Translations under genes and position numbers: made by a program
Notes under the pieces: generated by a model
Database searches by the model: none
What the model was told of the DNA's origin: nothing
Seen by the model: the letters and a program-made list of their open reading frames with translations, nothing else
Shown here: piece by piece, positions 1,390 to 15,962 of the stretch
Layout of the letters: every line of letters starts with the position of its first letter
Numbering within the stretch: position 1 is the stretch's first letter
Source of the DNA: a virus
Direction: 5' to 3' (one strand)
Virus record (IMG/VR): IMGVR_UViG_3300032073_003854
Span: 1 to 20,823 of that record
Length of the DNA: 20,823 bases

Positions 1390-2391
1390 ATGAAACGTTT
1401 GTTAACAATCGTGAGTTTACTCATGCTGATGTCATTTTCAGCTAAAGCTGATGACATTAAAATTGCTGAGTTAAATTGGCAATCGGGATCTATGATAGCC
1501 AACATAGATGCTTATATATTAAAACACGGCTATGGACACAACGTTGAAATTGTTCCAGGTGGTATTGACGCTACTATTCAATCAATGATGGCAACAGGCG
1601 AACCTAATATTTTTGGAGAAGCTTGGACATCATTATTAGGCGATGGTGCTAAAGATTATATTAACAGAGGATTACTTATTCTAGTTCGAGATGAAGTTGT
1701 AGTAGGAGCAGGTGAAGGGTTTTATATCCCAGACTATATTGCTTTAGAATACGGCTTTACAACAATTGAACAAGTATTAGAAAGACCAGATTTATTTCCA
1801 CATCCAGAAGATCCTTCAAAGGGTGGAATTGTAATTTGTCCAGAAGGTTGGAGTTGTTTAAAACATAACAACAATCTGTTTAGAGCTTTTGATATGGAAG
1901 CTAAAGGCTGGAAAACTATTGACCCAGGTTCAGGTACAGGATTAAATTCTGCTTGGGAAGGTGCTGTAGCAAAAGAGCAACCTTTTGTAGGATACTATTG
2001 GGAGCCTACTTCGTTTGTAGGTAAGCTAGGTTTAATTAAACTAGATGCTGATGTAGGTTATGCTGGTGACGATAACTGGACTAACTGTATTTCTTTGTCA
2101 GTAGAAGAATGTGAAAACCCACAACCGTCTGCTTGGCCAACTTCAGCAACAGGTACTATTATAACACCAAGCATTCAATTAAACAAAGGCGTAGTTGATT
2201 ATCTTTCTAAAAGATCAATTGACGGTAAAATAGTTACAGCTATGCTTGTATGGTTTGATGATAATCAAGCAACAGCAGAAGAGGCCGCGATAGAGTTTTT
2301 AAAACAATATCCTCTACTTTGGTCTAAATGGGTTACACCTGACGTAGCAGAAAAACTTACTACTGAACTAACAAAAGATTTGTTGGATTAA
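1390..2391 (+). CDS. proX: Glycine betaine/proline-betaine ABC transporter substrate-binding protein (ProX/OpuAC-like)
   Basis: Periplasmic binding protein that would capture glycine betaine or a related compatible solute for ABC import. The first 20 residues form a Sec signal peptide (MKR start, hydrophobic core, cleavage after AKA). The mature part has OpuAC-type motifs GEAW, CPEGWSC and GYYWEP. W79, W154 and W204 have nearly the spacing I recall for the E. coli ProX tryptophan cage (W65, W140, W188), and C150/C156 flank W154 as the E. coli disulfide pair flanks W140, so the ligand pocket looks intact. The full-length 333 residues match the family. An AGGAG site precedes the ATG, only 10 nt after gp46. 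ProW follows after 4 nt. A transporter gene in a phage replication operon is best read as host-derived auxiliary metabolism. The ligand could also be proline betaine, choline or another quaternary amine. Confidence 0.9.
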   Translation: MKRLLTIVSLLMLMSFSAKADDIKIAELNWQSGSMIANIDAYILKHGYGHNVEIVPGGIDATIQSMMATGEPNIFGEAWTSLLGDGAKDYINRGLLILVRDEVVVGAGEGFYIPDYIALEYGFTTIEQVLERPDLFPHPEDPSKGGIVICPEGWSCLKHNNNLFRAFDMEAKGWKTIDPGSGTGLNSAWEGAVAKEQPFVGYYWEPTSFVGKLGLIKLDADVGYAGDDNWTNCISLSVEECENPQPSAWPTSATGTIITPSIQLNKGVVDYLSKRSIDGKIVTAMLVWFDDNQATAEEAAIEFLKQYPLLWSKWVTPDVAEKLTTELTKDLLD

Positions 2392-2395
2392 GAAT

Positions 2396-3271
2396 GTGAG
2401 CTTTCCGTCATTAGACAAGCAAACTATTACAGCTTTAAAAAAGTCTATTGATGCGACCTTTAGGGAATTTGCTAGTAATTGGGGAGAGTGGTTTACTGAA
2501 TTACTTTCCCCACTTCACTGGTTACTAATTCATTTTGAAAAGTTATTACTTGTTACACCTTGGTATGTATTTTTAGGCTTAACAAGTTTATTAATTTGGA
2601 AACTTACTACCAGTTGGAAAATAGTACTAGGATTTTTATCTAGTTTTACTCTAATTGGTTTAGTAGGTATGTGGGACGACACAATGAGGACACTTGCCAT
2701 TGTTGTTATCTCCACATTTGTTTGTATTGTAATTGGTATACCTGTAGGTATATTAATGTCTAAAAAGGAAACAGCAAAAAAGATTATGTTACCTATACTA
2801 GACTTAATGCAGACTATTCCAAGTTTTGTATATCTAATTCCTGTTATAATGTTATTTGGACTTGGCAAAGTTCCTGGCTTAATTGCTATATGTTTCTTTG
2901 CTATACCACCAGTGATTAGATTTACAAACCTTGGTCTTCGAGAAATAGATAAAGACTTAACTGAAACAGCACACGCTTTAGGATTAAAACCTAGACATAT
3001 ATTATTATTTGTAGAGTTACCTTTAGCAAGAAGTGTTATACTAGGAGGTGTAAACCAAACTGTAATGATGTCATTAGCAATGGTTGTTATTGCTTCAATG
3101 ATAGGTGTACGTGGTTTAGGCTCTCAAGTTATGAATGCTGTTGGTAACGGATATCTAGGTTTGGGTGTTATTAGCGGGTTGTCAATTGTTGCTTTAGCAA
3201 TAGTCATTGATAGGACTATTCAAGCATATAGTAACAAGAAAGACTGGCGTAATAAGACAGGAAATAACTAA
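2396..3271 (+). CDS. proW: Glycine betaine ABC transporter permease (ProW/OpuAB-like)
   Basis: Inner-membrane permease that would partner the upstream binding protein. The 291 residues start with an amphipathic region and early membrane segments (about 50-95), followed by the BPD_transp_1 core (about 95-275) with several hydrophobic helices. The ABC-coupling EAA loop is visible as ETAHALGLKPRHILLFVELP (about 190-209), the contact site for the ATPase. The start is GTG at 2396, 4 nt after the ProX stop; the overlapping ATG at 2394 is closed at once by TGA. No strong Shine-Dalgarno is visible, so translation is probably coupled to proX. No ATPase (ProV/OpuAA) gene is present in the window, and the next gene is unrelated. 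The permease would therefore need a host ATPase or one encoded elsewhere in the phage. Confidence 0.9.
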   Translation: MSFPSLDKQTITALKKSIDATFREFASNWGEWFTELLSPLHWLLIHFEKLLLVTPWYVFLGLTSLLIWKLTTSWKIVLGFLSSFTLIGLVGMWDDTMRTLAIVVISTFVCIVIGIPVGILMSKKETAKKIMLPILDLMQTIPSFVYLIPVIMLFGLGKVPGLIAICFFAIPPVIRFTNLGLREIDKDLTETAHALGLKPRHILLFVELPLARSVILGGVNQTVMMSLAMVVIASMIGVRGLGSQVMNAVGNGYLGLGVISGLSIVALAIVIDRTIQAYSNKKDWRNKTGNN

Positions 3272-13577: not shown

Positions 13578-13602
13578 ATTAAATATAAGGGAGACATCTA
13601 AA

Positions 13603-14775
13603 ATGTCAGATACATTAATTGAAAGCCGTTGGGATGACACTAAATCGGCTCTTATGGAAGGCTTAGAAGGAAATTCTAAATCTACTATGAGCGTTGTTTT
13701 AGAAAACACCCGTAACTACTTAAAAGAGGCTGCAACTGCTGGCGCTACATCAGCCGGTAATGTTGCTACTCTAAACCGTGTGATTCTACCTGTAATCAGA
13801 CGTGTAATGCCTACTGTAATCGCTAACGAAATCGTTGGTGTACAACCTATGCAAGGTCCAGTAGGACAAATCCATACTCTAAGAGTAAGATATGCTGAAA
13901 CAACAACTGGTGGTGCTACAAACATCACAGCTGGCGATGAAGCATTATCACCGTTCAAAATTGCTGAGTCTTACAGTGGTAACGACGCTAACCCAGGAGC
14001 AGGTGCTTCTACGGCTAGCTTAGAAGGTTCTGCTGGTAAGAAATTGAACATCCAAATCTTAAAGCAACCTGTTGAAGCTAAAACTAGAAAGCTATCAGCA
14101 CGTTGGACTTTTGAGGCGGCTCAAGACGCTCAGTCAATGCACGGAATCGACGTTGAAGCAGAAATTATGGCGGCGTTGGCTCAAGAAATTACTGCTGAGA
14201 TTGACCAAGAAGTTCTTACTTCTTTAAGATCTTTAGCGGCAACTGAAGAGACATACAACCAATCTGCTGTAAGTGGTACTGCTACTTACGTTGGTGACGA
14301 GCATGCGGCTCTTGCTGTATTGATTAACAGAACAGCAAATAAAATTGCTCAAAGAACTAGACGTGGTGCTGGTAACTGGGCTGTGGTTTCTCCACAAGCA
14401 CTAACAGTACTTCAATCTGCTTCTACTTCAGCGTTTGCAAGAACAACTGAAGGAACTTTTGAAGCTCCTACAAACAACAAGTTTGTTGGTACTTTAAATG
14501 GCGCTATGAAAATTTATGTAGACACTTATGCCGCTGATAACTCAGCTGTATTAGTTGGTTACAAAGGTTCAAGCGAAGCGGACGCGGCTGCGTTCTATTG
14601 TCCATATGTACCTCTAATGAGCTCAGGAACAGTACTTGATCCTGATACTTTAGAGCCAGTAGTTGGTTTCATGACTAGATACGGTTATGTTGAATTAACT
14701 AACACAGCATCATCACTTGGTAATGCTGGTGACTACTTGGGCGAAATTGCTATGTCAAACATTTCGTTTGCTTAA
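13603..14775 (+). CDS. gp23: Major capsid protein gp23
   Basis: 390 residues from the ATG at 13603, selected by the strong AAGGGAG site upstream; the frame is open further 5' but that part overlaps the gp22 end. T4-like gp23 signatures: LNRVILPVIRRVMPTVIANE (about 58-77), IVGVQPMQGPVGQIHTLRVRY (about 78-98), KTRKLSARWTFEAAQDAQSMHGIDVEAE (about 160-187) and LVGYKG / YCPYVPL near the end. It is shorter than T4 gp23 (521). A gp21-type cleavage site, L-x-E, occurs at LKE (40-42), which would remove about 42 residues during maturation; this is inferred. The gene is followed within 30 nt by a strong terminator, so it ends the capsid block. Confidence 0.95.
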   Translation: MSDTLIESRWDDTKSALMEGLEGNSKSTMSVVLENTRNYLKEAATAGATSAGNVATLNRVILPVIRRVMPTVIANEIVGVQPMQGPVGQIHTLRVRYAETTTGGATNITAGDEALSPFKIAESYSGNDANPGAGASTASLEGSAGKKLNIQILKQPVEAKTRKLSARWTFEAAQDAQSMHGIDVEAEIMAALAQEITAEIDQEVLTSLRSLAATEETYNQSAVSGTATYVGDEHAALAVLINRTANKIAQRTRRGAGNWAVVSPQALTVLQSASTSAFARTTEGTFEAPTNNKFVGTLNGAMKIYVDTYAADNSAVLVGYKGSSEADAAAFYCPYVPLMSSGTVLDPDTLEPVVGFMTRYGYVELTNTASSLGNAGDYLGEIAMSNISFA

Positions 14776-14802
14776 TAGCATCGAGCTTAATAGCTAATAT
14801 TA

Positions 14803-14829
14803 GAAAGGCGCTTAGGCGCCTTTCTTTTT
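14803..14829 (+). terminator. Strong intrinsic terminator after gp23
   Basis: GAAAGGCGC (14803-14811) pairs perfectly with GCGCCTTTC (14816-14824) around TTAG, followed by TTTTT. It closes the gp20-gp23 block and insulates the next promoter. Confidence 0.9.
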
Positions 14830-14849
14830 GACTAAAATATCTTTCTCCA

Positions 14850-14906
14850 AAAAATCCAAAAAAAAAATAAAAAAAGGTTGACTTTAGGTTGTACTTGTGT
14901 TATATT
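14850..14906 (+). promoter_or_regulatory. Sigma70-type promoter with upstream A-tract for ncRNA B
   Basis: TTGACT (14878-14883) and TATATT (14901-14906) are separated by exactly 17 nt. Directly upstream lies an almost pure A-tract (about 14850-14875) resembling an UP element. The start site would fall near 14913, the first base of the closing helix of ncRNA B. It differs from the T4-type late boxes elsewhere in this structural region, implying transcription by unmodified host polymerase. Confidence 0.75.
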
Positions 14907-14912
14907 ATATAC

Positions 14913-15170
14913 ATAAGCAACAAAAGAGTAATTAGCTTTTGTTTGTAGTGCTAGGAAGAGGCTCTTACCAGAGGGTCGAACTAGGCTAGTTAGGGGTGGT
15001 ACCCAGGCTTGGTAGTAGAAATACGCTGAGTCACATCGCTCTCCCGAGTGGAACTAGGCTCCCTGGATTCAGACAGGTATCTGTGTCGAGGGGTTGGAGG
15101 TGTAACCGAGTCCTCCCTACTTTGCTTATTTTTTTAAAAAGGCTCGTTGTTGCTCCTTCGGGCCTTTTTT
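14913..15170 (+). ncRNA. Candidate structured ncRNA B with its own promoter and terminator
   Basis: No frame looks coding, but the RNA folds densely. Closing helix ATAAGCAA (14913-14920) with TTGCTTAT (15122-15129), continued by GTAG/CTAC (14945-14948 with 15117-15120). Inside: CAAAAG/CTTTTG (14921-14941), AACTA-GGC-TAGTT (14979-14991), GGGT-GGT-ACCC (14994-15004), an 8-bp stem plus bulged A and GTA-GAAA-TAC (15006-15032), CGCTC-TCCC-GAGTG (15037-15050), CCCT...AGGG enclosing ACAG-GTAT-CTGT (15061-15092), and GGAGG/CCTCC (15096-15116), where GGTT/AACC could add a pseudoknot. GAACTAGGCT occurs twice (14978, 15051). It is G+C-rich against AT-rich flanks and bounded by a sigma70 promoter and a terminator. 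I recognise no known class. Confidence 0.75.
15136..15170 (+). terminator. Intrinsic terminator of ncRNA B
   Basis: AAAAAGGCTCG (15136-15146) pairs with CGGGCCTTTTT (15159-15169), 11 bp with one G-U, ending in a T-run. A first T-run (15129-15135) directly follows the closing helix, so the mature 3' end could lie there. Confidence 0.85.
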
Positions 15171-15175
15171 CTTGA

Positions 15176-15182
15176 CTAAATA
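15176..15182 (+). promoter_or_regulatory. Late promoter box CTAAATA
   Basis: CTAAATA just after the ncRNA B terminator. The predicted start near 15188 is followed at once by a leader domain closed by CGTTC (15190-15194) with GAACG (15226-15230). Confidence 0.6.
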
Positions 15183-15259
15183 TTCTTATCGTTCAGCCAT
15201 TAGGCCGGAAGTAGCATAAGCGAAGGAACGCACCTAACTTTAACAATAAGGAGGGTGAT

Positions 15260-15403
15260 ATGAACTTTAAATGGGATTTAAAGAAACCCTTAGATGAACT
15301 AAAACGTAAAGTAAGTGCTTTAGCTGTACTTAGAAAACGTTCAAAAGATAGTGTTGCTAGACCATTAGCAAAGCCTAGTTCTAAGCCAAAAGCAGATAAA
15401 TAA
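15260..15403 (+). CDS. Small basic protein (47 aa)
   Basis: 47 residues, supported by a near-perfect AAGGAGG site 5 nt before the ATG and a late promoter 78 nt upstream. Sequence features: an amphipathic start (MNFKWDLKKPLDELKRK), a central hydrophobic ALAVLRKRSKD, and a Lys/Pro/Ser tail. It is strongly basic with no Cys or membrane helix. I do not recognise a family. It lies first in the unit downstream of ncRNA B and before a virion protein, so a minor virion or nucleic-acid-binding role is possible but unproven. Confidence 0.65.
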   Translation: MNFKWDLKKPLDELKRKVSALAVLRKRSKDSVARPLAKPSSKPKADK

Positions 15404-15500
15404 TATTGTCAAATAGTGTGCCGCAAGGCGGACTTATGCTGTTTAACCCACAGCGTACTGGATAGAACCCAGATAGGACTACTTATATAGGAGAAAAAAA
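15404..15500 (+). promoter_or_regulatory. Structured 5' leader with three consecutive stem-loops
   Basis: CCGC-AAG-GCGG (15421-15431), GCTG/CAGC (15438-15454, loop TTTAACCCA) and CTGG/CCAG (15458-15472, loop ATAGAAC) follow each other, ahead of GGAG (15490-15493) and the ATG at 15501. No clear late box is visible, so the RNA may be processed from a longer transcript. Confidence 0.45.
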
Positions 15501-15962
15501 ATGGGAAGACCAATTAACAAAAGATTTTTCGGTGTAGAAGGCACAGGCCCTACAGCTGGAAGTTCAGAAATCAAAGTAAACTTTCATAACGGCTCTGCTG
15601 TTAAAGAAGGTTATATCGTTAAGCAATTAGGTTCAAAAAAATTCCGTGTTGAAGAAATTGGAACAGCAGGAACTTTTGATTGTACACTTGCTACAGGAAA
15701 ATTACCGGCGGCTTTAACTGCTGGTGAAATGTCAATTTCAGTACAAGGTGCTGATTCAGAAACTTATGGCGTGAGCAAAATTTCAGGTCGTACAGTTACA
15801 CTAGCAAAACCTAGTAATACTGGATCTAACGCTTTAGACGGAGAAAAAGTATCATGGGCATTAACTGGAGCGGCGGCTACAGGTGTTGTTAGAATGGAAG
15901 AAGCTGGTGATGACAATACATTATCAGGAACTGATGACGACGATCTAACAGAAGACGCTTAA
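15501..15962 (+). CDS. Conserved virion structural protein (153 aa)
   Basis: 153 residues. The start MGRPINKRFFG matches small structural proteins I recall from T4-like marine phages (MGRPINK..FG...). The body is beta-rich: EIKVNFHNGSAVKEGYIVKQLGSKKFRVEEI, then TFDCTLA and GVSKISGRTVTLAKPS. The C-terminus is acidic (DDNTLSGTDDDDLTEDA). The Shine-Dalgarno GGAG is 7 nt before the ATG. A strong terminator follows, so it is the last gene of its unit. A role as a head or neck decoration protein is possible; the exact function is unknown. Confidence 0.7.
   Translation: MGRPINKRFFGVEGTGPTAGSSEIKVNFHNGSAVKEGYIVKQLGSKKFRVEEIGTAGTFDCTLATGKLPAALTAGEMSISVQGADSETYGVSKISGRTVTLAKPSNTGSNALDGEKVSWALTGAAATGVVRMEEAGDDNTLSGTDDDDLTEDA

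Follow-up and report, generated by a model that had tools for sequence, protein, structure and literature searches.

Sequence comparison places the structured RNA encoded behind the major capsid gene of this phage in a known structural family, the manA RNA (RF01745), of which it is a divergent member. The window, meaning the whole 20.8-kb stretch of DNA analysed, is a fragment of a T4-like marine phage and carries genes for the portal protein, the prohead protease and the major capsid protein. Its manA RNA is probably free-standing, produced by the host polymerase from its own short transcription unit, and most likely trans-acting. The structural family has been known since 2010, and the promoter-RNA-terminator architecture may be a new aspect of it. 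After gp23, the order of elements is terminator, A-tract, promoter, structured RNA, terminator, a unit comprising a glutamine riboswitch and a 47-residue ORF, and freshwater-2 (Table 1). The next ORF is 136 nt from the manA RNA core, 3' of the glutamine riboswitch, which has its own late box. Elsewhere in the window (1390-3271), two adjacent genes of a glycine-betaine-type ABC transporter encode its substrate-binding protein (PF04069) and its permease (PF00528); no ATPase gene was recognised within the window.

Table 1. Features surrounding the manA RNA, in window coordinates.
Feature	Position	Strand	Evidence
gp23 major capsid protein gene, upstream neighbour	13600..14775	+	phrog_138, E 1.4e-99
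gp23 intrinsic terminator (AGAAAGGCGCTTAGGCGCCTTTCTTTTT)	14802..14829	+	direct reading; same terminator behind gp23 in L002
A-tract, 5' of promoter	14849..14875	+	direct reading; A-rich tracts before promoter in many relatives
Sigma70-type promoter TTGACT-17-TATATT	14878..14906	+	near-fixed distance in 166/179 relatives, ~19 expected
manA-family structured RNA including outer closing helix	14913..15129	+	RF01745 match 14921-15126 and covariation
Intrinsic terminator of manA RNA	15136..15170	+	separate from closing helix; little predicted pairing with remaining RNA
Late-promoter-like box CTAAATA of following unit	15176..15182	+	direct reading; late-box statistics
Glutamine riboswitch aptamer RF01739, neighbouring unit outside manA RNA	15188..15234	+	53.9 bits, cut-off 35
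47-aa ORF 3' of glutamine riboswitch	15260..15403	+	direct reading; no family match
Late-promoter-like box ATAAATA preceding freshwater-2	15396..15402	+	direct reading
freshwater-2 RNA (RF02980), leader of next gene	15417..15503	+	70 bits, cut-off 49.9

Relatives were gathered from IMG/VR by three DNA patterns, supplemented from phage records, and aligned by a profile HMM, a procedure that may miss distant ones. This yielded at least 181 flanked, non-redundant copies: 61 window-like (subgroup A), 21 resembling locus L053 (subgroup B), 97 cyanophage-like (subgroup C) and 2 other; the 179 manA RNAs referred to below are the copies assigned to subgroups A, B and C among the matches listed. Because the sampling was motif-seeded and drawn from the matches listed, and the sequences are phylogenetically related, the counts do not represent independent events. 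Promoter and terminator scans were home-made, with shuffle controls, and neighbour gene names were partly assigned by eye. One pattern scan for host genomes returned two contigs with Gammaproteobacteria MAG titles, and a search for plasmid-borne spread gave no match.

At Rfam's own cut-offs, a scan of the stretch returns no match, whereas at relaxed settings the window RNA aligns end to end with the manA model (positions 1-192 of 192, 52.3 bits, E 1.7e-12), slightly below the curated gathering cut-off of 55.2 bits. Its close relatives score 45-76 bits against RF01745, the RNA of Pelagibacter phage Mosig 64 bits, L053 79.9 bits, other pelagiphage-like loci 75-92 bits and cyanophages 124-193 bits. 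Of 46 sampled records with window-like members, 23 exceed the cut-off and 15 further ones match below it (38/46 in all). The full-length match and the relatives bridging the score gap therefore make the window RNA a divergent member of the known family, with which it also shares helix order, conserved bases and occurrence in T4-like marine phages (PMC2864571). At 31 window positions, the identical base occurs at 85% or more in each of subgroups A, B and C, though the helices vary. The initial annotation had recognised no published class here; the match to a family described in 2010 overturns that view and rules out a new RNA class. Among other candidate identities, ARAGORN found no tRNA or tmRNA in the window, a weak match to RsaE (19.9 bits, where the cut-off is 79) is due to chance, and a coding gene was rejected, the sole candidate and best frame through the RNA being a 59-aa GTG ORF, in keeping with the non-coding character first proposed.

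The manA RNA was described from marine sequences and T4-like cyanophages and marked as cis-regulatory and a possible riboswitch, with mannose/fructose, nucleotide, ibpA and photosynthesis genes named (Weinberg et al. 2010, PMC2864571). According to Rfam's authors, its ZWD alignment contains 48 significantly covarying pairs (PMC7779021). The cis label is retained in the S-CREM1 paper (PMC9964418), and a 2025 review lists the RNA as 'cis' (PMC12197685). A search of openly accessible papers turned up neither binding data nor measurements of manA RNA expression during infection. Published RNA-seq data for P-HM2 (PMC5082946) include counts of intergenic reads. GenBank hypothetical proteins overlie the RNA in P-HM1 (PHM1_121), P-SSM4 (PSSM4_169.1), S-SSM5 (SSSM5_127) and P-HM2 (PHM2_011/012), and these are probably spurious.

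Structurally, compensatory changes in relatives back the fold. In alignment A1, which comprises the 61 non-redundant window-like sequences of subgroup A, RNAalifold predicts 47 pairs, 30 of them showing such changes. With the outer helix included, 37 of 55 pairs are changed on both sides among these 61 relatives, a level that none of 500 shuffles reaches, and standard pairs fill 95.6% of pair cells, compared with 80.5% when shuffled and at most 51% when slid. Against dinucleotide shuffles, the stability of this fold in the window RNA has a z of -1.9, with 9 of 200 shuffles equally stable; among 414 segments of the same size from the contig it is beaten by only 1, a rank owed in part to the GC content of the RNA (48.6%, compared with 36.5% for the window). 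The outer closing helix, pairing 14913-14920 with 15122-15129, extends beyond the Rfam model. It is weaker than the core, with 83.9% of cells paired in its main part and 59.2% in its two inner pairs, and is absent from some relatives; in its main part, each of the six pairs shows compensatory changes (variants AUAAGC/GCUUAU, AAUGC/GCAUU, AUAUGC/GCAUAU and AUACC/GGUAU). A hairpin 5' of the core keeps its shape while its sequence and loop vary. The structured, G+C-rich element of the initial annotation is thus upheld, including the compensatory substitutions by which it was to be checked.

The promoter likewise lies where it had first been placed, with TTGACT at 14878-14883 and TATATT at 14901-14906 separated by a 17-bp spacer, and the predicted +1 falls, as claimed, on 14913, where the closing helix begins. 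Under a criterion of TTGACA/TATAAT with at most three mismatches, a sigma70-like promoter abuts the structure in 166 of the 179 manA RNAs among the matches listed, where about 19 would be expected by chance; by subgroup, again among the matches listed, the counts are 53/61 (A), 21/21 (B) and 92/97 (C), compared with 7.2, 2.8 and 8.6 in shuffles. In all three subgroups, the distance between the -10 box and the RNA core takes a few near-fixed values, and this same spacing would make the predicted +1 the opening base of the structure in the relatives as well. Only the promoter type points to the early or constitutive expression initially suggested. In L132, L133, L135, L138, L142 and L146, the -35 TTGACA 5' of the manA RNA sits within a hairpin before a T-run (for example GGGTGCTTGACACCC-TTTTTTT), so that terminator and promoter are combined, and this occurs at several distinct genomic sites. 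A small window-like subset (L088, L091, L163, L170, L178, L201, L209 and L231) lacks both a good sigma70 promoter and a terminator, and its first hairpin is of the (G/A)(A/T)CCGACGG type; these copies may be under different control.

On the 3' side, a strict terminator occurs within 130 nt in 35/61 A, 21/21 B and 9/97 C copies among the matches listed (0.0, 0.4 and 0.4 expected), mostly 12-21 nt beyond the RNA core in A and B. The first terminator scan missed a long-loop hairpin in subgroup C, which a later recount took in by motif. In the window, the intrinsic terminator sits where it had been annotated, and the unit is indeed isolated by terminators on both sides amid genes with T4-type late boxes; its own promoter and terminator signals bound a discrete RNA and are conserved. 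The closing helix and the terminator occupy separate stretches, and the predicted fold contains both. Predicted pairing between terminator and RNA amounts to 0.11 for the window and averages about 0 over 56 terminated A/B copies, which therefore give no sign of a switchable terminator; the computed fold of the window RNA contains no competing expression platform of the kind that marks a riboswitch.

The next gene has its own late box in 28 of 35 terminated A and 21 of 21 terminated B copies among the matches listed. Signs that the next gene does not simply form the body of an mRNA headed by the manA RNA (a terminator, a conserved hairpin with AAGATGCAACU, a direct tRNA or a late box before the next ORF, the hairpin and late-box classes being weaker evidence than terminators) are present in 40/61 A, 21/21 B and 58/97 C copies among the matches listed. 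An ORF within 60 nt, with none of these signs in between, follows 35/97 C and 10/61 A copies among the matches listed; this arrangement fits a 5' leader, a role compatible with many cyanophage copies and with Mosig. In at least 8 loci, tRNA-Gly(TCC) or tRNA-Asn(GTT) directly abuts the manA RNA (L061:4505-4579, L145:1683-1753, L266, L284, L297, L312, L346 and L351). In 21/97 subgroup C copies among the matches listed, another conserved element, AGACC-UAAGAUGCAACU-hairpin-GGGCAGAU-GGUCU, lies 21-29 nt past the last manA core motif, in most cases with a T-run behind it (L315, L321, L347, L354, L289 and 16 others). An Rfam scan of this element in five loci gave no match, and it may be either an RNA in its own right or a terminator whose internal loop is conserved.

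Genomic neighborhood analysis reveals 55 gene families downstream and 70 upstream of manA RNAs among the matches listed. The gp23 family lies directly upstream in 33/172 among the matches listed, spanning all subgroups; most copies are elsewhere, behind pstS, regA, ferredoxin or ribonucleotide reductase genes or before gp32 or talC. Behind terminated A/B copies, the next gene mostly belongs to one family (39 members among the matches listed) that includes the freshwater-2 gene of the window, by its MGRPINK start; other next genes include gp32-like and transaldolase-like proteins, named by eye from sequence and annotated relatives. In the close relative L002, whose gp23 is 96% identical, the gp23 terminator is joined straight to the late box and freshwater-2, and the manA cassette is absent; this empty site indicates that the cassette is optional. 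In L053 the manA RNA follows the glutamine-riboswitch module, in the window it precedes it, and this opposite order indicates that the two move independently.

Among phage records, extended BLAST similarity (77.6% across 69% of the query) is confined to Pelagibacter phage Mosig EXVC030M (MT647606.1). Its manA RNA belongs to the same subgroup and has a TTGACA/TATATT promoter directly upstream; unlike that of the window, it is without a terminator, and an annotated rubrerythrin ORF starts 24 bp past the match. The manA RNAs of P-HM1, MED4-213, P-RSM4, S-TIM4 and S-SSM5 resemble the window RNA in lying directly behind gp23 with a host-type promoter, and that of metaG-MbCM1, also with a host-type promoter, lies directly behind a gene annotated as gp24. 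Unlike the window RNA, all six are in subgroup C, score 169-190 bits and have a classical terminator in fewer cases.

In the proposed mechanism, host sigma70-type RNA polymerase would start at 14913 and stop at the terminator, so that the non-coding product would be about 258 nt long. Its multi-helix scaffold would display the conserved unpaired core during infection to a partner from the host or the phage, for which a protein, a ribonucleoprotein and a small molecule are candidates. Action in trans is favoured because no coding sequence lies on the same predicted transcript. An unlikely alternative is a cis-acting riboswitch or leader, in which the manA fold would sense a signal and the terminator at 15136-15170 would serve as expression platform for read-through downstream. 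The filing of manA as cis-regulatory and a possible riboswitch, by the 2010 description (PMC2864571) and by Rfam, speaks for it, as do the common riboswitch layout of aptamer then terminator, the ORFs within 60 nt of many cyanophage copies and the uninterrupted approach to the Mosig rubrerythrin ORF. Rfam's 'Cis-reg' type implies a 5' UTR location, whereas the window RNA has its own promoter and terminator, a difference that concerns the functional label and not the structural family. The separate closing helix and terminator with their near-absent pairing, the late box of the downstream unit in the window and the incoherence of the downstream genes, with 55 families among the matches listed, all argue against a leader.

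Still less probable is a module for stabilising or processing transcripts at the 5' or 3' side, which would protect or space mRNA or tRNA precursors and have no partner of its own. Such a module would agree with an RNA that starts at the predicted +1 and precedes many unrelated genes and tRNAs, but conservation at 31 positions in all three subgroups exceeds what a plain stabiliser needs, and terminated copies leave nothing downstream to protect. The virion-associated or packaging RNA raised in the initial annotation is very improbable: the site behind gp23 is recurrent, but most copies lie elsewhere, and a host-type promoter does not point to late expression.

The independent, trans-acting RNA gene favoured for the window can be extended only tentatively, at somewhat less than even chances, to manA RNAs generally, as free-standing, host-polymerase-transcribed, trans-acting RNAs in movable promoter-RNA(-terminator or -tRNA) cassettes of T4-like marine phages. 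If this holds, the label of cis-regulatory element or riboswitch candidate would be wrong for the whole family. For an independent RNA gene, the search for function would move away from ligands and downstream genes and towards the partners that the RNA binds in infected cells, with the terminated subgroups as a clean test case, since no downstream gene confuses the result. The relevant infections are those of Pelagibacter and picocyanobacteria, whose cells rank with the most abundant in the sea.
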